A stretch of 39,882 bases of DNA from a virus, in the IMG/VR virus record IMGVR_UViG_3300044547_000562, positions 1 through 39,882 of that record; one strand, written 5' to 3'. The position numbers and the translations under genes are program-made. Under the pieces are notes generated by a model. That model was not told where the DNA came from, made no database searches, and saw only the letters and a list, made by a program, of their open reading frames with translations. Shown here piece after piece: positions 2,784-39,882 of this stretch (its first letter is position 1; every line of letters starts with the position of its first letter).

Positions 2784-3352
2784 TACCAACCTTTCTGCGA
2801 ACTGGGTGCGGAATCAAGCAGGGAGCCAGTGCGTCCCTTCAGTGCTTGCCGCTTCTCTCCTTGAGACCGGCACAGCCAGGCATTCAGGAAGCGTCCCATA
2901 CCGCGGCGAGTCTTGCGCTTGGTAGGGTTGCTCTTGATCCAGAGACAGGCCAAGGTCAACTCACGGTCTACCATTGTTTGACCGAATGCAGAACAGAAGT
3001 CTGAGTAAAGATTCGGCGGGATCGAGTAGAACCCATCCTGACAGGGAAATTGGTCGCCTGTTTCCTGTGGCGGTTCTGGCTCAGGAAGCAACTCTTCCTT
3101 GAGAGCCTCCAGCACTTCCGGTCCATAGAAAGCACTATTTGCTTCAACCATTTCAACAACGGACTTATACCGCTTGCCGCTGGGCTTTAGGTCTTCGGCT
3201 GTCACAACCTCATCGTCGCGCATGGCAGGCGATTCCTCTGCCACGGGAGCCGGTTGCGGCGCCTCAACAGGCTTGGGTGTCTCAATGGAAACAGGAATGC
3301 AGACATCCATAACGGTGCCGCCCCAGTAGGTAATTTTGATCGTGATGTTCAT
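2783..3352 (-). CDS. Putative replisome protein (helicase loader/initiator-like C-terminus)
   Basis: 189 aa; the ATG at 3352 has a strong Shine-Dalgarno (GGAGGTGA) that lies inside the last codons of the upstream gene. The first 60 residues are Pro/Glu-rich and probably disordered. The C-terminal block ACLWIKSNPTKRKTRRGM followed by RFLNAWL resembles a short module found at the C-termini of many phage replication proteins. It sits directly upstream of the helicase N-half, which suggests helicase loading or replisome assembly. That role is inferred from position and motif; no enzymatic motif is visible. Confidence 0.55.
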   Translation of the reverse strand: MNITIKITYWGGTVMDVCIPVSIETPKPVEAPQPAPVAEESPAMRDDEVVTAEDLKPSGKRYKSVVEMVEANSAFYGPEVLEALKEELLPEPEPPQETGDQFPCQDGFYSIPPNLYSDFCSAFGQTMVDRELTLACLWIKSNPTKRKTRRGMGRFLNAWLCRSQGEKRQALKGRTGSLLDSAPSSQKGW

Positions 3353-3366
3353 TTCGTCACCTCCTT
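3349..3366 (-). promoter_or_regulatory. Stop/RBS/start coupling cassette, distant copy
   Basis: AAGGAGGTGACGAAATGA ends the coiled-coil gene as KEVTK and gives a GGAGGTGA ribosome-binding site for the ATG at 3352. Its pattern matches the three cassettes at 38617-39022, on the other side of the circular junction. Confidence 0.6.
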
Positions 3367-3924
3367 CGCTGCTGCGATGAGTGCGTCTGCCCCATCAAGT
3401 GCGTACTTAATCCAAGTGCCCTTAACCTCCGTCACATACACCGTGTTGGAGAACCTGCCAGCAACGAGCATCGCCGCAATCTCAAGGCGGGAGGGTTCTA
3501 GGCGCGTGGGCACCTTCATTGTGACAACCGCATGGTTTATCTCCATCTGGTTCGCAACATCTCCTTTTAGTCGCTCCACCTCTTCGCGAGCCTCATCACG
3601 CTCTCTGGCGACAACATCAATGCGCTTGAGCATCTCGCAGTAGCTTTCGTAGTGAGCATCTGAAATGCTCTTTTGCACCCTGATATGTTCGTGAAGGGCC
3701 TGAACTGCGGAATCGGAGCCAATCTTTACCTGCTCTACCTCGGCGCTGGCTTCGTCGCGCAACTTAACAAGATCGTTGATGATCCCATTGTAGTGGTTGG
3801 TTGAGTCGGAAAGTTCCTGCTTCAGTCGCTCCACCTCAGCCCGAAGCTCCTGAACTGCGGGGTCGGATTCAGCCATCTCGCGGCCATACTCAGCAAGTGC
3901 TGCTACTACTTTTTCAATGTCCAT
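3349..3924 (-). CDS. Coiled-coil protein of unknown function
   Basis: 191 aa from the ATG at 3924, chosen because upstream in-frame codons run into the structured RNA copies. Residues about 15-125 are rich in Glu/Lys/Leu heptads (ELRAEVERLKQELSD and similar), predicting a long coiled coil. The C-terminal 60 residues look globular and contain no known motif. The last codons (KEVTK) contain the ribosome-binding site of the next gene, with an ATGA overlap. It is the first gene after the two-copy RNA motif cluster at 3979-4141. Confidence 0.7.
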   Translation of the reverse strand: MDIEKVVAALAEYGREMAESDPAVQELRAEVERLKQELSDSTNHYNGIINDLVKLRDEASAEVEQVKIGSDSAVQALHEHIRVQKSISDAHYESYCEMLKRIDVVARERDEAREEVERLKGDVANQMEINHAVVTMKVPTRLEPSRLEIAAMLVAGRFSNTVYVTEVKGTWIKYALDGADALIAAAKEVTK

Positions 3925-3978
3925 ATCAGTGTTTGGTTTGTTTGTTGGTCTGCGTGTTGACAGATGCGCAGCCCCTGA

Positions 3979-4055
3979 CCGATCTCTCCTCGGCAAGTCA
4001 CGCCTAGCATGGCGGCGTTCCCAGTGTTGCAATCATTTTATGTGCAGGCAACACT
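3979..4055 (-). ncRNA. Three-hairpin GAGAGA RNA motif, copy A2
   Basis: In RNA orientation (minus strand): P1 hairpin AGUGUUGC/GCAACACU (4048-4055 with 4023-4030), then GGGA, P2 hairpin ACGCC/GGCGU (4014-4018 with 4100-4104 reversed, i.e. 4000-4004), then GAC, then P3 CCGA/UCGG closing a GGAGAGA loop (3979-3993). It lies between the resolvase-like gene and the coiled-coil gene, next to copy A1. The same architecture recurs at 22661-22936 with different stem sequences. Function unknown. Confidence 0.65.
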
Positions 4056-4077
4056 CGCACACTCTGGCCGAGTTCTT

Positions 4078-4141
4078 GCCGGTCTCTCCCGACTGTCACG
4101 CCCATTGACTCTTGGCGGCGTTCCCGATCTGGCGTCCCAGA
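4078..4141 (-). ncRNA. Three-hairpin GAGAGA RNA motif, copy A1
   Basis: Minus-strand order: P1 UCUGG-GACG-CCAGA (4128-4141), a UC spacer, GGGA (4122-4125), P2 ACGCC/GGCGU (4117-4121 with 4098-4102), GAC (4095-4097), P3 GUCGG-GAGAGA-CCGGC (4078-4093, one U-G pair). It begins 2 nt after the stop codon of the resolvase-like gene. The 37 bases at 4094-4130 are identical to those in copy C1 after the capsid gene (22888-22924), including the P2 loop, which indicates fairly recent copying between the two sites. Confidence 0.7.
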
Positions 4142-4142
4142 G

Positions 4143-4487
4143 TTACTTGGGCAACTTGTTTAGCCCATCCATGCCGTCGCGCAAGAGCTTGAAGAACAAC
4201 TCGCTGCTCATTGTCACGCGCCATGGTTTACGATCTTTCTTGTGGGCGACTACCCAGTCCTTGAGTGTGCCAGCGTCTCGCTTGGCTTGGTCGATGGCAC
4301 CGTCAAGGTTGAGGGCCTGCACACACTTCACTTCAAAGTGAAGACCAGCAAGCTCCTCGCAGATCACGTCCGGGCTGTCGGTGCCCCCGGCGAACTGCTG
4401 GCCCCTGCGAGCAGTGAAGCCAGCCTCGCGGAGTTCATCGCGCCAGAGACGCTCGCCACGAGCACCCTTTTGGCGTGAGTTTACCAT
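4143..4487 (-). CDS. Holliday-junction-resolvase-like PD-(D/E)XK nuclease
   Basis: 114 aa, ATG at 4487, overlapping the upstream stop by 7 nt. The QKGARGERLWRDEL start supplies E12, followed by a basic stretch. TDSPDVIC (D40) and HFEVKC (E52, K54) complete the E...D...ExK pattern of Hjc-type archaeal/phage junction resolvases. Known role of the family: cleaving four-way junctions during recombination or resolving branched DNA before packaging. The neighbours (ssDNA-binding protein, helicase, exonuclease) agree. A generic repair endonuclease of the same fold is the main alternative. Confidence 0.75.
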   Translation of the reverse strand: MVNSRQKGARGERLWRDELREAGFTARRGQQFAGGTDSPDVICEELAGLHFEVKCVQALNLDGAIDQAKRDAGTLKDWVVAHKKDRKPWRVTMSSELFFKLLRDGMDGLNKLPK

Positions 4488-22030: not shown

Positions 22031-22350
22031 TTACTTGGAGGCGTCCAACCTACACTGATTTCTTTAACGCCGCCACTATTTACTCTGCATTCAGGATTGT
22101 CACGCAAGAACTCAGCCAGAAACTCCTTATCGTCCCAGCATCCAAATCCAAGTTTGTGCCCCCAAAAATAATAGGCAGCGCCGGGAATGCGATGAGTAAG
22201 CTGGCCAAGTCCTTCAACTGATTTGTGCCGAGCTTGATTGATTTTGCCAATTTTCTTGGCCTCTAAAGCAGCTTCAACTTTGTTGCGCTCCCAGCCTGCA
22301 CGCAGCTCCTTCTCAAGCTGCCCAATCATGTTTTCAGGAATGCTGATCAT
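22027..22350 (-). CDS. Conserved phage protein of unknown function
   Basis: 107 aa, with overlaps at both ends. The block KINQARHKSVEGLGQLTHRI followed by PGAAYYFWGHKLGFGCWDDK and EFLAEFLRDNPECRV recurs in many uncultured phage genomes next to capsid or connector genes. The aromatic/histidine-rich centre suggests a small folded domain. No catalytic role is evident. Minor virion protein or head-completion factor are the likeliest options from position. Confidence 0.65.
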   Translation of the reverse strand: MISIPENMIGQLEKELRAGWERNKVEAALEAKKIGKINQARHKSVEGLGQLTHRIPGAAYYFWGHKLGFGCWDDKEFLAEFLRDNPECRVNSGGVKEISVGWTPPSK

Positions 22351-22583
22351 ACACGCGCCATAAAAGTTGTGCCGGGACCGGGAACGCGGGGCAGTTTGCC
22401 CTGTGCGTCATAAATGCCACTGTAAGGGCTAATCTTGTCTGATGGCATTGCTGAGCCATTTGTGCCCTCTGGGCCGCTGCTGGCGGGCTTCCTGTCGGCT
22501 AGGGCCACCAAGTTAGCAGGGGCCTGCACCCCGGTGTAGCGTTGAATCAGTTCTGGAATTATTGGTATTGGAAGTACAGTCAT
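22347..22583 (-). CDS. Small Pro-rich late protein
   Basis: 78 aa from the ATG at 22583, the first gene after the three RNA motif copies that follow the capsid gene. It starts MTVLPIPIIPELIQRYTG and continues with a Gly/Pro/Ser-rich, probably disordered region. Its stop overlaps the next ATG. The function is unknown. Confidence 0.6.
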   Translation of the reverse strand: MTVLPIPIIPELIQRYTGVQAPANLVALADRKPASSGPEGTNGSAMPSDKISPYSGIYDAQGKLPRVPGPGTTFMARV

Positions 22584-22660: not shown

Positions 22661-22704
22661 GCCGTCTCTCCGGCTGTCACACCACTGCATCGACCGAGTA
22701 TCCC
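22661..22704 (-). ncRNA. Three-hairpin GAGAGA RNA motif, copy C3 (divergent)
   Basis: P3 GCCG-GAGAGA-CGGC is perfect (22661-22674), preceded by GAC (22676-22678) and a weaker P2 AUAC/GUGU (22698-22701 with 22679-22682). The GGG joining P1 and P2 lacks its free A, and no clear P1 is visible; GACCG/CGGUC can pair instead. It is the last and most decayed copy of the cluster, ending about 80 nt before the next gene. Confidence 0.5.
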
Positions 22705-22757
22705 GGTCCGCGCTCGCCGGCATGGAGCCAGCATGGCAGGTGTCGCTAAACTGAAGA

Positions 22758-22845
22758 AATCGTCTCTCCGATTAGTCACGTCTTAGTCGTTGCAGGGACG
22801 TTCCCGTCTGGTTTTACGCCTTTTAACTTGGGGCCACGCTCCAGA
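22758..22845 (-). ncRNA. Three-hairpin GAGAGA RNA motif, copy C2
   Basis: P1 UCUGG/CCAGA (22841-22845 with 22807-22811, 29-nt loop), GGGA (22802-22805), P2 ACGUC/GACGU (22797-22801 with 22778-22782), GAC (22775-22777), P3 AAUCG-GAGAGA-CGAUU (22758-22773). Compared with copies A1 and C1, the P2 and P3 stem bases have changed on both sides while pairing is kept. That is the covariation expected of a functional RNA structure. Confidence 0.68.
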
Positions 22846-22871
22846 TCGCGCACCTCGCGCTGCGAAGATAT

Positions 22872-22936
22872 CTCTGTCTCTCCAGAGTGTCACGCCCATT
22901 GACTCTTGGCGGCGTTCCCGATCTCGCGTCCGAGAT
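22872..22936 (-). ncRNA. Three-hairpin GAGAGA RNA motif, copy C1 (adjacent to capsid stop codon)
   Basis: P1 AUCUCG-GACG-CGAGAU (22921-22936) starts on the last base of the capsid stop codon. GGGA (22916-22919), P2 ACGCC/GGCGU (22911-22915 with 22892-22896), GAC (22889-22891) and P3 CUCUG-GAGAGA-CAGAG (22872-22887) follow. Tandem copies C2 and C3 come next. The position suggests a role in capsid mRNA stability, processing or termination, but there is no U-tract. Confidence 0.7.
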
Positions 22937-24012
22937 TAAGCAGCGTTGTAGTCGAACTTGCCGAGACCCAGCGGGTTCCCAACAACCAGACCAGCAACAG
23001 CTTCCACAAGGCGTCCGGGTCCACCACCGTTGTCGGTAAGCGGAGTGACCTGAGCCACGTTGCCGCCATAACGCACTTCGATGAGGTTCATGTCAAGCAC
23101 AAGGCCCTTGAACGCCGTGGGCGTGTAGGTCGTGCCAGACACAGTCCCGATGAACGTGGTCGGATGCAAACGCACCGTGCCGAAGTCACCCTGAAACACG
23201 TCCAGCGACTGGATGTAGGTGTCAGCAGCGGCATCACGCTGGAAGGTCTGCACCTTCGTTGCGCCTGCGCCGGTCACGCCCACAGTGGAAGTGGTGGTCA
23301 GGCTGGTCGTCCCAAGCAGGCCGGTGAAAGCGCGTTTCAGGTCGGTGCCCACGATGCAGTCAAAGCTCGTGTAGTGACCAGTCTGGTCGAAGATCGACTT
23401 GAGCAAGCCCTGCACAACAGAGTCCGTCAGGGACGTTCCAAGCGCGGCGCCCGTGCCCACGATGGAAGTCGTAGGAGTACGGAAGATGGAAGGAATGTCT
23501 CCAGGAGTCGGAGTGCCCGTGCCGGCGTTGCTGATCCAGGTCTGCGCACCAGCGGTACGGTAGGCCTGGGTCTGGTTGCCGGTGTCAACCTGCGAAACCT
23601 GATTGGAGGTCATCGTGACTTCCATGTCCCGCTTGATCCCGGTGATCGCCTTGGCCACGTTGTCAGCCAGTTCGTCACGCACGCCAGCGACATCAGCGAT
23701 GTCCTGAGTGAGCTTGGAAACGCGGACTGCGCGCCGGTAGATCTGGGCGTAGTTGGCAAGTTCGGAACGATAGTTAACAACGTAGTTGCTAACGCCGCTC
23801 GTGAGGTTCACGTCAAGACCGTCCGGCACGCCGCCAACTTCAGGAGTCGGAAGGCTGTCGGACTGCCAACGGAAGAACATGTTGCCGGGCTTGGAGCCCT
23901 TTTTGGCCATAGACGTGAAGGGCGTGTCCTTGGCGTCAACCAAGGCGATCATGTCCATCAAGTCTTCGCGCTTACCGCGGCCGGAGAGATTAGGTTCTGT
24001 AAGAACAGGCAT
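22936..24012 (-). CDS. Major capsid protein (DUF5309-like)
   Basis: 358 aa, ATG at 24012. Segments such as REDLMDMIALVDAKDTPFTS and FFRWQSDSLPTPEVGGVPDG, and RRAVRVSKLTQDIADVAG..DELADNVAKAITGIKRDMEVTM, match the N-terminal and spine-helix pattern of DUF5309/SU10-like HK97-fold capsid proteins. The C-terminal VLDMNLIEVRYGGNVAQVTP strand leads to a short end. It lies directly after the scaffold gene, as usual. Three structured RNA copies begin at its stop codon. Confidence 0.88.
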   Translation of the reverse strand: MPVLTEPNLSGRGKREDLMDMIALVDAKDTPFTSMAKKGSKPGNMFFRWQSDSLPTPEVGGVPDGLDVNLTSGVSNYVVNYRSELANYAQIYRRAVRVSKLTQDIADVAGVRDELADNVAKAITGIKRDMEVTMTSNQVSQVDTGNQTQAYRTAGAQTWISNAGTGTPTPGDIPSIFRTPTTSIVGTGAALGTSLTDSVVQGLLKSIFDQTGHYTSFDCIVGTDLKRAFTGLLGTTSLTTTSTVGVTGAGATKVQTFQRDAAADTYIQSLDVFQGDFGTVRLHPTTFIGTVSGTTYTPTAFKGLVLDMNLIEVRYGGNVAQVTPLTDNGGGPGRLVEAVAGLVVGNPLGLGKFDYNAA

Positions 24013-29186: not shown

Positions 29187-29633
29187 GATGTGTGGTTTTT
29201 GAGAAGTTACCTGTGCCTCCTAAGATAAGGGGGCCGTGTAGCCACTGGTCAACCTGAAAGACGGACCCACTGGATGAAGACATGGTTCCGGGTATTCCTC
29301 TTGACCCGGATTAAAGATCACTGATGTTCAAGAATCAGTGAGTGCTGCATAGTCACCCACGATAGAGGTAATGCTAGGCTGAACGGGTAGCCATGGGCAA
29401 AGACTATGATATGCGATGCGATATGGTGACTTTTATACGGAAGTACCTCCTTCACTTTGAGCACTACCCCCAATTCTAGGTGGCTAACACTCAGTCTTGG
29501 GGGTACTATGCTCAGCTCAAGGCTCCTATTACCGGAAGTGGTTGGTATTCCCGAAGGGTCGGGCCGACGGCCCGAAGGGAATACAGGTAGCAATACAGGC
29601 TAGCATGGCTACCTATACAGGTTAAGAACGTCC
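29187..29633 (-). ncRNA. Structured non-coding region upstream of terL (candidate RNA)
   Basis: There is no credible gene in these 447 nt. At least four strong perfect inverted repeats are present: GTATTCCC/GGGAATAC enclosing CGGGCC-GAC-GGCCCG (about 29546-29584), TACCCCCAA/TTGGGGGTA (about 29464-29507) extended by TGAGCA/TGCTCA, CACTGAT/ATCAGTG (about 29319-29340), and CCGGGT/ACCCGG (about 29287-29310). A long-range pair GGTAGCCATG/CATGGCTACC (about 29386 and 29604) could close the region. It may be a structured leader, a packaging RNA or the pac/cos site. Confidence 0.45.
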
Positions 29634-30140
29634 TTAGTGATTAAGTACGTTGCCGATTCCTTGGCCGATGTCTCCCAAGAACAGGCTGCCATTCTGTACC
29701 GGGATAAATTGGTTTACTTTGATTTGGTTGCCCTTCTGGCCAACAAAGACTCTACCCAGAGTATCCGTCTCCACGAACCGCTGGTTCTGGTGCTTCTTCA
29801 CCACCCTGGCCTGCCTGACTGTGTAGTCGATGGTTGCCGGCCTGATTATGATCGGCGCCATATCCTGCTTGTGTTCCACAAGACTGGGATCAACCACGCT
29901 TAAAGCGATATGATCGGCGTTTAAATCGTTAAGATCGCTTTTAACCGCGGCTTTAGCGTTAAGATCAGCACTTGGATTGCACTTAAAAGAAGATGCATCA
30001 ACTATGTCAGCCCTAAACATGACCCGGCTGCCAAATCCAGTCTTCTGCCGCCTGTAGTCCACGCCTTCCGTGTACTTGGCCAAGTCATACGCAGCACCCA
30101 ACTGCGCCTTCATCTGCTTTTCATGCACTGTGAATTTCAT
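29634..30140 (-). CDS. First gene of the late block, function unknown
   Basis: 168 aa from the ATG at 30140 (MKFTVHEKQMKAQLGAAYDL). The N-terminal helix is followed by a basic region (RRQKTGFGSRVMF), a middle with SADLNAKAAVKSDLNDLNAD, and a beta-rich C-terminus (FVETDTLGRVFVGQKGNQIK). It has no recognisable domain. It is the first minus-strand gene after the divergent control region, with a TATAAA box 36 nt upstream and a small hairpin between. It could be an early regulator or a packaging factor. Confidence 0.65.
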   Translation of the reverse strand: MKFTVHEKQMKAQLGAAYDLAKYTEGVDYRRQKTGFGSRVMFRADIVDASSFKCNPSADLNAKAAVKSDLNDLNADHIALSVVDPSLVEHKQDMAPIIIRPATIDYTVRQARVVKKHQNQRFVETDTLGRVFVGQKGNQIKVNQFIPVQNGSLFLGDIGQGIGNVLNH

Positions 30141-30149
30141 ACGATTTGC

Positions 30150-30181
30150 GGTCCTACGGACCAAAGTGTTCAATTTTTATA
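30150..30181 (-). promoter_or_regulatory. Candidate promoter for the late block with leader hairpin
   Basis: On the minus strand TATAAA (30176-30181) sits about 36 nt upstream of the ATG at 30140, in a GTGTGTATAAAAATTG context. No good -35 box lies 17 nt upstream. A GGTCC-GTA-GGACC hairpin (30150-30162) falls in the predicted leader close to the start codon and could modulate translation. Assignment rests on sequence inspection only. Confidence 0.35.
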
Positions 30182-30570
30182 CACACCTGTAGCAGCAGAA
30201 AGGACGCCCAGTCTGCACAAGCAAACCAGCTGTACACGATGCTGTACTGGCACTCCCGCCAAGGTGTAGACAGCAGCTTCGCACACAGGGCCAATATGGC
30301 CGCGTCCCTTTCCAACAGCTCACCGGCATGTGTAGCGGCCCTGTGTAGCGGCGTCAAGCAGGTGTGTGGCTAACCGGCCAGGCACAGAGAGGACGGGGCG
30401 CTGGAGCGGGGCAGGCTGCGTAGCAAGCGGGGGCGCACAGAGAGAGGGGCCAGTTGCGGAGAAAATTTTCAGGTGGGGGGATGAGTTGTAGCGAAAGTTC
30501 TCAGACAGAGACAGACCCCCTCCCCCCCTATCGGTTCCGGTCTGACACCGGCCGCGGCCGTCTCTGTGCA

Positions 30571-30601
30571 GCCTTGGGCCGGTTGGAGCCTTGGGCCGGT
30601 T
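30571..30601. repeat. Tandem 14-bp repeat
   Basis: GCCTTGGGCCGGTT occurs at 30571-30584 and again at 30588-30601, a 17-bp period. It lies in the divergent control region beside the ACAGAGAG motifs. Tandem iterons can bind initiators or regulators, but two copies alone do not prove this. Confidence 0.5.
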
Positions 30602-30771
30602 TACAGAGAGAACTCTTTATTACTAGTCTTGTGTGACGTTATTAAACGCGCAAAGTGAGCGGCCGAGCACGGGGGTGGGGACGGGCGGTGGAGGGTGGAG
30701 AGGACCGGCCGGGGAGGGTTGCGCGGGGTTGCTGTGGAACAAGCGCACCTGGACGCATTGCCCACCCAATA

Positions 30772-30789
30772 GGTGAAGTAAACTTCACC
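30772..30789. promoter_or_regulatory. Inverted repeat, operator-like
   Basis: GGTGAAGT-AA-ACTTCACC is a perfect 8-bp palindrome with a 2-nt centre, located 124 bp upstream of the first plus-strand gene. Its symmetry fits a dimeric HTH repressor; small HTH proteins are encoded at 32841-33062 and 36614-37012. As RNA it would need a larger loop, so a DNA site is more likely. Confidence 0.45.
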
Positions 30790-30912
30790 CTTTCCCCGCA
30801 CCCTCTCCACCAGGCACGCACCCGCTGCACCCTTCGCACCCTGCTTTCGCGCACCCTCACCTTTTTTTATCTTTTCGCTAAAGCTGCGCGCAACCTTTGC
30901 CGATACTCTAGC

Positions 30913-31134
30913 ATGACCGCAACATCTCAGCTCCCATCCCGTATCGCAAACAAACTAGCCAGCATCACCGACAAGGCCACCCTTAACACTATTCGCGACA
31001 ATCGTTTAGCCCGCAAGAATGGCAGCTTCGCGCTGCACATCCGCCGACATCACATTTTCCTAGCCTGTATTGATCGCCGTGTGCAGCTCTTTAGCGACCG
31101 CCGCGCTGCATTCCGTGTTGAAATGGGCCTCTAA
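30913..31134 (+). CDS. First gene of plus-strand cassette, hypothetical
   Basis: 73 aa from the ATG at 30913. MTATSQLPSRIANKLASITD is followed by a basic alpha/beta region (NTIRDNRLARKNGSFALHIR, then FLACIDRRVQLFSDRRAAF). No family was recognised; the basic charge suggests nucleic-acid contact. There is no Shine-Dalgarno, and the start context ACTCTAGCATGACC recurs at the start of the gene at 32060. Confidence 0.6.
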   Translation: MTATSQLPSRIANKLASITDKATLNTIRDNRLARKNGSFALHIRRHHIFLACIDRRVQLFSDRRAAFRVEMGL

Positions 31135-31146
31135 TCCTCTCCCACT

Positions 31147-31192
31147 CTGCTCCTCTCTACACGGGGGGAGCAGTAGGGAGCGGATTCCCCGT
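31147..31192 (+). ncRNA. H-type pseudoknot candidate upstream of the GP88-like gene
   Basis: Stem 1 is CTGCTCC (31147-31153) with GGAGCAG (31167-31173); stem 2 is ACGGGG (31161-31166) with CCCCGT (31187-31192). The stems interleave, stem 2 starts inside the stem 1 loop and the two abut without a spacer, which is the geometry of a compact H-type pseudoknot. It ends 26 nt before the ATG at 31219. It could be a translational control element or riboswitch-like; there is no U-tract. Confidence 0.5.
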
Positions 31193-31218
31193 TTCACTTA
31201 ACAACCTAAAAAACCCAT

Positions 31219-31857
31219 ATGCGACACCTTCAAGAAAACCTACCCTCCGTTCCCTTCACCCTTTCGGCTCCCTCAAAAATGCCTTGCCGCTCTTTCTCTC
31301 TGCCGCTCTCCGTGTGCACGGTAGGAAGCAAGCTTGCCAAGCAACCCGGAACAATCTGTTCCCTTTGCTACGCTGCAAGCGGAAACTACCGATTCGGCAA
31401 CGTGCAACGCGCACTAGATGCTCGCCTAAGCGCTTTCAACTCGCCTTCCTTCGTCCCTGAAATGATCGCAAAGATTAAGAAGGAAGAGAAGAGCGGATAT
31501 TTCCGCTGGTTTGATTCTGGGGACGTCCCTTCGTGGAAGGGGCTTCTTAAGATTGTGCAGATTGCCCTAGCGTTGCCGGATATCCGCTTCTGGCTTCCCA
31601 CTAAGGAGTACGCCCTAATTCAACGCTACGTTTCTACCGTTGGCGCCTTCCCTAGCAATCTCACTGTGCGCCTTTCGGCCTACATAGTGGACGGTCCCGC
31701 ACCTGTTGCGCTTGCTTCCCGTCTGGGGGTCGTCACTTCTACAGTGACAAGCGCACCTGAAGCCGCAACTTGTCCCGCACCTAAGCAGGGTAACCAATGC
31801 AAAGACTGTAGGGCATGCTGGAAAAGCGCTTCAAACGTTGCGTATCTTCTACACTAA
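31219..31857 (+). CDS. GP88-like phage protein
   Basis: 212 aa. SKMPCRSFSLPLSVCTVG and GTICSLCYAASGNYRFGNVQ (residues about 19-63) give a cysteine pattern followed by CxxCYA, then SGYFRWFDSGDVPSW and DIRFWLPTKEY. These blocks match my recollection of the phage gene product 88 (GP88) family, whose biochemical role is unknown. Further cysteines (CPAPKQGNQCKDCRACW) at the C-terminus suggest a metal or Fe-S site. The gene lacks a Shine-Dalgarno and has a pseudoknot candidate in its leader. Confidence 0.7.
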   Translation: MRHLQENLPSVPFTLSAPSKMPCRSFSLPLSVCTVGSKLAKQPGTICSLCYAASGNYRFGNVQRALDARLSAFNSPSFVPEMIAKIKKEEKSGYFRWFDSGDVPSWKGLLKIVQIALALPDIRFWLPTKEYALIQRYVSTVGAFPSNLTVRLSAYIVDGPAPVALASRLGVVTSTVTSAPEAATCPAPKQGNQCKDCRACWKSASNVAYLLH

Positions 31858-31875
31858 CCTTTGCACTCCCTAATC

Positions 31876-32058
31876 ATGAACACCCAAAAACACACCCTCG
31901 CCATTCGTGCCGCTTCCCTTGCGCTTGTCGCTTTGGATTGCTGGCTTCCCTCTCAGTTTCCAGCCTGTTTTCCGGCCGCCATGCTTGTCTTTTGGACGCT
32001 TGGCAGTCTTGCGCTTGTCCTTTGCGTTGTTCCAACCAAATCCCGTTTCTCACTCTAG
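31876..32058 (+). CDS. Small membrane protein of the plus cassette
   Basis: 60 aa from the ATG at 31876. Two hydrophobic spans (AIRAASLALVALDCWLP and AAMLVFWTLGSLALVLCVV) predict a two-pass membrane protein with a short basic C-terminus (PTKSRFSL). It sits in an operon with GP88-like and two small proteins. It might be involved in superinfection exclusion or envelope modification, but that is a guess from topology. Confidence 0.55.
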   Translation: MNTQKHTLAIRAASLALVALDCWLPSQFPACFPAAMLVFWTLGSLALVLCVVPTKSRFSL

Positions 32059-32059
32059 T

Positions 32060-32257
32060 ATGACCCTTCAAAAAATCTTATCGGATCATGCCAGGCTTGC
32101 GATTGCGTTTGGCCGGTTCGGCCGGCTGGATGCTAACGGGGCTTGTTGCGTGGCAACTGATATTCTCGAGGCAGCCGCGGATGGGTGCTTTGACGCTGAC
32201 AAGCTGGCGGATGAGTTGCTGGCCGATTGTGAGCGGATGGAAAAGGGGGGGGAATGA
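32060..32257 (+). CDS. Small acidic helical protein
   Basis: 65 aa. MTLQKILSDHARLAIAFGRF precedes a helical, acidic C-terminus (ADKLADELLADCERMEKGGE). The start lies one base after the previous stop and is preceded by ACTCTAG, the same context as the gene at 30913. No family was recognised. Confidence 0.6.
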   Translation: MTLQKILSDHARLAIAFGRFGRLDANGACCVATDILEAAADGCFDADKLADELLADCERMEKGGE

Positions 32258-32337
32258 CCTTCCCAGAGCCCCGAGAACTAGCGCAACTCATTGCCTTCGC
32301 AATCGTGCTTAGGCTGCTCGGCTTCTTCTTCAACTAA
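32254..32337 (+). CDS. 27-aa hydrophobic peptide
   Basis: The ATG at 32254 overlaps the previous stop (ATGA) and reads 27 codons: a short polar start (MTFPEPRELAQ) and a hydrophobic helix (LIAFAIVLRLLGFFFN). The Shine-Dalgarno-like GGGGGGG run just upstream and the 4-nt overlap favour translation. It would be a single-pass membrane peptide. It ends 17 nt before the terminator. Confidence 0.45.
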   Translation: MTFPEPRELAQLIAFAIVLRLLGFFFN

Positions 32338-32353
32338 CCCACCTAAACCAAAG

Positions 32354-32382
32354 GGGCGCCCCCACAGAGGGCGCCCTTCTTT
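32354..32382 (+). terminator. Rho-independent terminator of the plus cassette
   Basis: GGGCGCCC (32354-32361) and GGGCGCCC (32369-32376) pair perfectly around a 7-nt loop and are followed by TTCTTT on the plus strand. It closes the plus-strand cassette before the converging minus-strand genes. Confidence 0.8.
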
Positions 32383-32631
32383 GTGCCCTAATCCGGCGCC
32401 CTACCCTTGCCACCCTAGGCAAGCGGCCGGCCGAGCTGGCCAACCCGCCCAAGCCAACCCGCCCGAGCACCCAAGGCACCCAAGCCTGCTCACGAGCTGG
32501 CTATGTGTCCACCCATATACACACATATGGGCGCCAGCCGTTCCAATCTCATATTTTGATTTTGATTTCTAGTTAAAGAAACTTTTTTGATTTTGAATTT
32601 TGATTTCAGATTTGAATTTTGGATTTCAATT
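32383..32631. other. Convergent intergenic region with hairpins and low-complexity AT stretch
   Basis: No gene is seen. The first half is C-rich with a CTTGCC/GGCAAG hairpin (about 32405-32422) and a perfect CCCATAT-ACACAC-ATATGGG hairpin (32512-32531). The second half (about 32548-32636) is a slippery T/A-rich sequence of repeated TTTTGATTT and GAATTTTG units on the plus strand, reading into the 3' end of the acidic-tail gene. It probably insulates the converging transcripts. Confidence 0.55.
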
Positions 32632-39503: not shown

Positions 39504-39882
39504 TGTAGCGGGGCAGGATAAGTTTGAACTCCGGCAGACCGGGCCACTCTTGGCCCTGCTGGCAGCGCTTGAAGTGCGCCAGCTCTTCCTCGATGCGGGC
39601 GTTGGCATTTGCCAGCAAGTCCGTAGAGGGTCGCATAAACTGAGCCAAATGTGGTGCTTCCGTATCGACGACGAGAAACCAAAAGCCTGGCACTTCCTTC
39701 ATGCCAGAAGCCTTGCGGTAACCGTACTGGTACCACGCGGCCTGCACATCGTACCGAAATCGGTTAAAGCTGTTGTCGAAGGAGCGGATGTCGTTCGTGG
39801 TTTTCAAGTCCACGATGCACGTCTCGCCGTTGATAGTGGCAATCATGTCAGGCCGGCCCTTGCACTTGATCCCGTCACGCTC
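39496..39882 (-). CDS. RecE-like PD-(D/E)XK exonuclease, C-terminal part
   Basis: This is the continuation of the gene starting at 490; bases 39756-39882 repeat 1-127. It contains the metal-binding core (IVDLKTTND, D146 and K148 of the full protein), then helices (RFRYDVQAAWYQYGYRKASG), FLVVDTEAPHLAQF and the C-terminal LPEFKLILPRYND. The stop at 39496 lies 8 nt inside the next start, so the operon continues. Confidence 0.85.
   Translation of the reverse strand, partial: ERDGIKCKGRPDMIATINGETCIVDLKTTNDIRSFDNSFNRFRYDVQAAWYQYGYRKASGMKEVPGFWFLVVDTEAPHLAQFMRPSTDLLANANARIEEELAHFKRCQQGQEWPGLPEFKLILPRYND
39756..39882. repeat. Terminal direct repeat, right copy
   Basis: Identical to 1-127; see the left copy. 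It marks where the circular assembly was opened, inside the exonuclease gene, and is not a natural end. Confidence 0.95.

Follow-up and report, generated by a model that had tools for sequence, protein, structure and literature searches.

A small folded RNA of about 60 bases, unmatched by any of the 4227 families in Rfam 15, lies between genes in phages of very different bacteria, often near the start of an operon or right beside tRNA genes, and it may be a signal that keeps phage transcription going past stop signals, although we hold this function only tentatively. The element was first noted in a 39,882 bp phage sequence (IMG/VR record IMGVR_UViG_3300044547_000562, referred to here in its full length as the window), which has an exact 127 bp direct terminal repeat (positions 1-127 and 39756-39882) and is probably a complete, circularly mapped genome. 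Of 51 gene calls in the window 48 are on the minus strand, and the element lies on the minus strand also. A preliminary description from the sequence alone reported three tandem copies of a three-hairpin RNA after the major capsid gene, with constant linkers and a constant GAGAGA loop but with stems changing on both sides. That observation is confirmed, and the element is more widespread than was reported; its interpretation is partly supported, in that a selected RNA structure that is no known ribozyme or riboswitch is upheld, whereas the general structure is a pseudoknot followed by a hairpin and not three hairpins in a row, and the position after the capsid gene is a feature of one lineage.

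Five copies are present in the window, three after the capsid gene (22661-22936) and two after a RusA gene (3978-4141). The pattern GGGA-N-GTGAC-N-GGAGAGA matches five times (22877-22919, 22763-22805, 22665-22704, 4083-4125 and 3983-4022) and not at all in 100 dinucleotide shuffles, such that none is expected by chance. All five match a covariance model (R2) at E-values of 9e-27 to 9e-17, although values from the short calibration are rough, and copies 2, 3 and 5 were rows of the seed alignment; copies 1 and 4 were not, but share most of their P2 loop with seed rows. A first covariance model (R1) had mis-set pairs and was not used. Minimum free energy folding of the 300-nt stretch is unremarkable (z -0.94), and the evidence is thus comparative rather than energetic.

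The major capsid gene (22936-24012; PHROG 1328 major head protein, E 8e-38) ends in a TAA codon at 22938-22936, and copy 1 (22872-22936; 54.7 bits, E 2e-24) begins on position 22936, as had been described. Its P1 hairpin is AUCUCG (22936-22931) / CGAGAU (22926-22921), followed by GGGA (22919-22916), the S2 stem (P2 of the preliminary description) ACGCC (22915-22911) / GGCGU (22896-22892), GAC (22891-22889), and P3, in which CUCUG (22887-22883) and CAGAG (22876-22872) close the GAGAGA loop (22882-22877). Copy 2 (22758-22805; E 6e-21) has GGGA, S2 ACGUC (22801-22797) / GACGU (22782-22778), GAC (22777-22775), and P3 AAUCG (22773-22769) / CGAUU (22762-22758) around GAGAGA (22768-22763). Copy 3 (22661-22746; E 9e-17) was described with AUAC/GUGU as its second stem, which is probably incorrect: relatives of this subclass pair GCG-ACACC (ACACC at 22743-22739) with GGUGU (22683-22679), enclosing an internal hairpin GACCG (22708-22704) / CGGUC (22696-22692) whose loop is GGGAUAC, and these are followed by GAC (22678-22676) and P3 GCCG (22674-22671) / CGGC (22664-22661) around GAGAGA (22670-22665). 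The 5' arm of this GCG-ACACC...GGUGU subclass lies about 65 nt upstream of GAC. A small gene (22347-22583, minus strand, ATG at 22583), called by coding score, lies downstream of copies 1-3.

Copies 4 and 5 follow a RusA-like resolvase gene (4143-4487, minus strand; PHROG 244, E 5e-18). Copy 4 (4078-4141; E 9e-27) lies directly after the RusA stop codon (4145-4143), and has P1 UCUGG (4141-4137) / CCAGA (4132-4128), S2 ACGCC (4121-4117) / GGCGU (4102-4098), GAC (4097-4095), and P3 GUCGG/CCGGC around GAGAGA (4088-4083). Copy 5 (3978-4055; E 4e-17) has P1 AGUGUUGC (4055-4048) / GCAACACU (4030-4023), S2 ACGCC (4018-4014) / GGCGU (4004-4000), GAC (3999-3997), and P3 GCCGA (3994-3990) / UCGGU (3982-3978) around (G)GAGAGA (3989-3983). 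The gene downstream of these copies (3349-3924, minus strand) is inferred to start at an in-frame ATG at 3924, as the longer open reading frame starting at 4032 would run through copy 5. P1 is convincing in copies 1, 4 and 5, doubtful in copy 2 (where it has a 29-nt loop) and absent from copy 3; across the GGGAACG subfamily it is only modestly enriched (at least 6 bp in 25% against 8.5% shuffled), and P1 is thus real in this lineage but is rejected as a general feature.

To ask whether the RNA structure is selected, two scans of viral contigs were performed, each fixing a different part of the element so that the free part could be judged; these recovered at least 118 and at least 120 stretches, so that the abundance is a lower bound. 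When GGGA...GUGAC...GGAGAGA was fixed and P3 left free, 58 of 77 distinct P3 sequences form at least 4 contiguous pairs, compared to 8.8 (maximum 16) when partners are swapped. When only the P3 hairpin was fixed, 47 of 98 non-redundant hits have a perfect 5-bp complement to the bases immediately before GAC, compared to 7.8+-2.6 for shuffled upstream sequence; this Watson-Crick test replaced a longest-stem test of S2, which was weak because short GU-rich stems are common. A MAFFT alignment of the broad set misaligned the 5' arm and was not used for counts. Covariation is strong: a formal count on 64 distinct sequences gives 96.5% paired cells with changes on both sides in 8 of 9 pairs, reached by none of 500 shuffles, although this alignment was fitted to the model and so leans to the structure. 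The constancy of the linker and loop with changing stems holds in the window and across more than two hundred other copies.

The conserved core consists of S2 (ACNNN / NNNGU), GAC, 0-2 nt (usually A), P3 (4-5 bp) closing the purine loop GAGAGA, and an 8-nt G-poor tail of the type ACCNWWU. The bases preceding S2 pair with the start of its loop to give an H-type pseudoknot in the order S1a, 1-2 nt, S2a, 1-2 nt, S1b, loop, S2b. In these registers 14 of 60 sequences have at least 4 S1 pairs, compared to 2.2 on swapping (maximum 7 in 300 swaps). Of five control registers three are at the swapped level and two, (0,0) and (3,3), are mildly above it for short helices, but none has an excess of helices of 4 or more pairs. 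A free-register search was not significant, and the fixed registers were chosen after seeing it, so that S1 is well supported but not beyond doubt. The P3 portion (GAC-N-stem-GAGAGA-stem) provides an annotation handle for many unexplained phage intergenic regions.

All 30 capsid-lineage loci searched, which were fetched by capsid protein and not by motif, carry the element on the strand of the capsid gene and just after it. It is also present in 18 contigs of GTDB genomes from several phyla, with Myxococcota and Clostridia among the genome assemblies in which it is found, and in cultured phages of Gordonia, Planktothrix, Microcystis, Rhodobacter, Phaeobacter, Sinorhizobium, Cronobacter, Pseudomonas, Morganella and others, such that it is shared by phages of Alpha- and Gammaproteobacteria, Actinobacteria and Cyanobacteria; the weakest of the BLAST matches to cultured phages were checked by eye for S2 and P3 pairing. 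No hit was found in 5,426 E. coli genomes searched with a set of P3 variants. Outside the window lineage most phages have a single copy, and copies occupy one strand per genome except in one 360-kb record. In the capsid lineage the two element sites are roughly half a genome apart (about 18-23 kb each way), as seen in the window and in four loci (L161, L124, L016 and L064, in records G036, G037, G039 and G043).

Of 260 copies with an S2 stem (not made non-redundant), 215 lie in gaps between predicted genes, 178 of these between two genes transcribed in the same direction as the element, and one is antisense inside a gene; gene calls outside annotated records rely on a hexamer score that we devised. 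In one cultured phage, Rhodobacter phage RcCWillis, the element is antisense to its neighboring genes. Away from the capsid lineage the element follows SSB or Cro-like genes or directly precedes tRNAs, and the genes just upstream include ssDNA-binding proteins and major head proteins more often than one would expect, although these tallies derive from 76 non-redundant proteins without a formal background. The strongest positional signal is an asymmetry in which an antisense gene is met upstream but not downstream of 17 copies within 1 kb and the reverse in 3 (binomial p 0.003), and in 11 against 1 within 4 kb (p 0.006), noting that the windows are nested and are not independent tests. Where such a strand switch is present, the divergent gene often belongs to repressor families and the intervening genes to repressor/regulator families of the CI/Cro type, with CII-like genes downstream three times, and this is the layout of nutR and putR. 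Separately, a tRNA or tRNA-like gene begins 1-11 nt after P3 in 19 of 156 copies, compared to 1.8% of random positions (p 1e-10).

The explanation that we favor, although we consider it somewhat less likely than not, is that the element is an RNA-encoded processive antiterminator, working like HK022 put (PMC9378689) but without sequence similarity to it in the HK022 stretches examined. In this view the RNA folds as it leaves the polymerase, binds the elongation complex directly or with a host factor, and lets transcription pass terminators, Rho sites and untranslated tRNA stretches downstream, and would do for these phages what lambda nut/N or HK022 put does for lambdoid phages; the several copies in the window lineage would be reload sites about half a genome apart. 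The fold itself is shown by sequence comparison and transcription in sense with the surrounding operon is inferred from strand, whereas binding to RNA polymerase and antitermination are inferred and not shown; whether the element, like put, acts through the RNA polymerase beta' zinc-binding domain and suppresses termination was not tested here. A cis role follows from the sense orientation and the close spacing to tRNAs, and the nutR-like position, the usual single copy and the spread across phyla, which fits a universally conserved target such as RNA polymerase, favor an RNA that modifies the polymerase. Several findings weigh against this: intrinsic terminators are not enriched downstream, the element is not biased to the start of tRNA arrays, in the window lineage the copies are about 6 and 25 kb into a single-direction operon and not at its start, the copy in phage RcCWillis is antisense to its neighboring genes, and no sequence similarity to put was found in the HK022 stretches examined. 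If antitermination is correct, then protein-free antitermination by an RNA acting alone on RNA polymerase would be a common phage strategy and not a lambdoid oddity; failing that, a new ribozyme class maturing phage tRNA 5' ends is not excluded. The element makes it possible to ask directly whether phages outside the lambdoids use RNA alone to control polymerase processivity or to process tRNA operons.

Among the alternatives, a transcript-processing and insulation element is unlikely but the closest competitor. A host nuclease would cut in the G-poor tail after P3, leaving a pseudoknot-protected 3' end on the upstream capsid or SSB mRNA and a short leader on the downstream tRNA or mRNA, similar to REP/xrRNA-type stabilizers. 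Processing, with or without self-cleavage, accounts for the tRNA and capsid/SSB contexts better than antitermination does, and the G-poor tail and the tandem copies after capsid also speak for processing, but it does not explain the bias to operon starts and repressor/Cro neighborhoods, and no single nuclease is common to all hosts. A new self-cleaving ribozyme that trims tRNA 5' leaders and splits polycistronic RNA, a mirror image of the theta ribozymes at tRNA 3' ends (PMC10879173), could work in any host and would fit the pseudoknot, the invariant GAC and GAGAGA, and the tRNA adjacency. However, no Rfam ribozyme family matches, most copies are not next to tRNAs and no candidate cleavage site stands out; self-cleavage was not assayed, and we regard this as improbable. 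Equally improbable is a trans-acting RNA or decoy for a host enzyme or defense protein, embedded in abundant phage transcripts and released by processing. The usually single copy in unrelated gene contexts, the frequent position downstream of genes expected to be highly expressed and the extra copies in some lineages are consistent with this, but the tight spacing to tRNAs and the operon-start bias point to a cis role and no target is known. Least likely is a translational element in which the GGAGA of P3 acts as a ribosome-binding or regulatory site for the next gene. In some relatives AUG follows P3 by 6-20 nt without another obvious ribosome-binding sequence, but the distance to the next start codon is broad (median 92 nt), copies preceding tRNAs have no adjacent open reading frame, and GAGAGA is conserved beyond what GGAG pairing needs. 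Some other function is also possible.

Small cis-acting phage RNAs are a known kind of element, but this family appears undescribed within what could be searched. Searches at both gathering and relaxed thresholds found no Rfam family, including the known self-cleaving ribozymes, overlapping any copy searched; a literature search, which did not extend to bioRxiv or to most subscription papers, found no description of the motif. The relation to Mu-gpT-DE (RF03012) suggested by the preliminary description, also a short RNA downstream of a phage head gene, was examined by name, with no match in the window at E<=10 and none at the motif positions in the named phage records searched, where all hits were under the cut-off and lay elsewhere. 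STAXI (RF01728; PMC2864571) similarly comprises short pseudoknots, often tandem and near SSB genes in mobile elements, but has no match in the window and gave no hit in the Rfam searches; our copies lie about 100 nt apart and are usually single, and have the conserved GAC and GAGAGA hairpin. Theta (HDV-like) ribozymes are likewise small pseudoknotted phage RNAs next to tRNAs, but have a nested double pseudoknot and a cleavage site at tRNA 3' ends, whereas this element has a single pseudoknot and lies at tRNA 5' ends.

HK022 put is a cis RNA of about 70 nt with two adjacent structured arms, and many copies of our element have a nutR-like position, but put lacks sequence similarity to it in the stretches examined. 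The R2 model gave no hit above noise in HK022 21.0-26.6 and 26.5-33.5 kb except 13.5 bits inside the IS903 transposase gene, and a scan of 26.5-33.5 kb for a hairpin of this type was negative; in the absence of exact put coordinates, coverage of both put sites is likely but unproven. The element has the H-type pseudoknot and GAGAGA hairpin and occurs far beyond lambdoid phages. Whether it shares with put a location a short way downstream of an early promoter is left undecided, as the operon-start bias and the repressor/Cro neighbors argue for it but the window lineage does not conform. The lambda nut site shares an early-operon position after a cro-like gene and a small purine-loop hairpin, but our element has an additional conserved pseudoknot, and the words enriched after P3 (AATTT, GATCGG, GCGTGG and the like) are not boxA; only the 3' side was examined in this way, and no N-like gene was sought.

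Among other features, we note that at ten loci (L237, L304, L306, L312, L232, L202, L284, L164, L185 and L149) there are tRNA-like structures just downstream of the element with intact acceptor and T arms but a missing, very long or odd anticodon arm, several with a D arm like GGCGUGGNNGGUGACACGC and several escaping ARAGORN; these are possibly tRNA-like decoys or processing signals. In a Thiocystis contig (L216) a C4 antisense RNA (RF01695; 4198-4281) is located about 2.8 kb downstream of an element copy. The window itself encodes a phosphoadenosine phosphosulfate reductase (960-1826), an auxiliary metabolic gene. Its longest stretch with few convincing genes (29187-32631) has some weak plus-strand open reading frames and TTTTGATTTTGA repeats near 32554, and may hold the main promoter or origin region.
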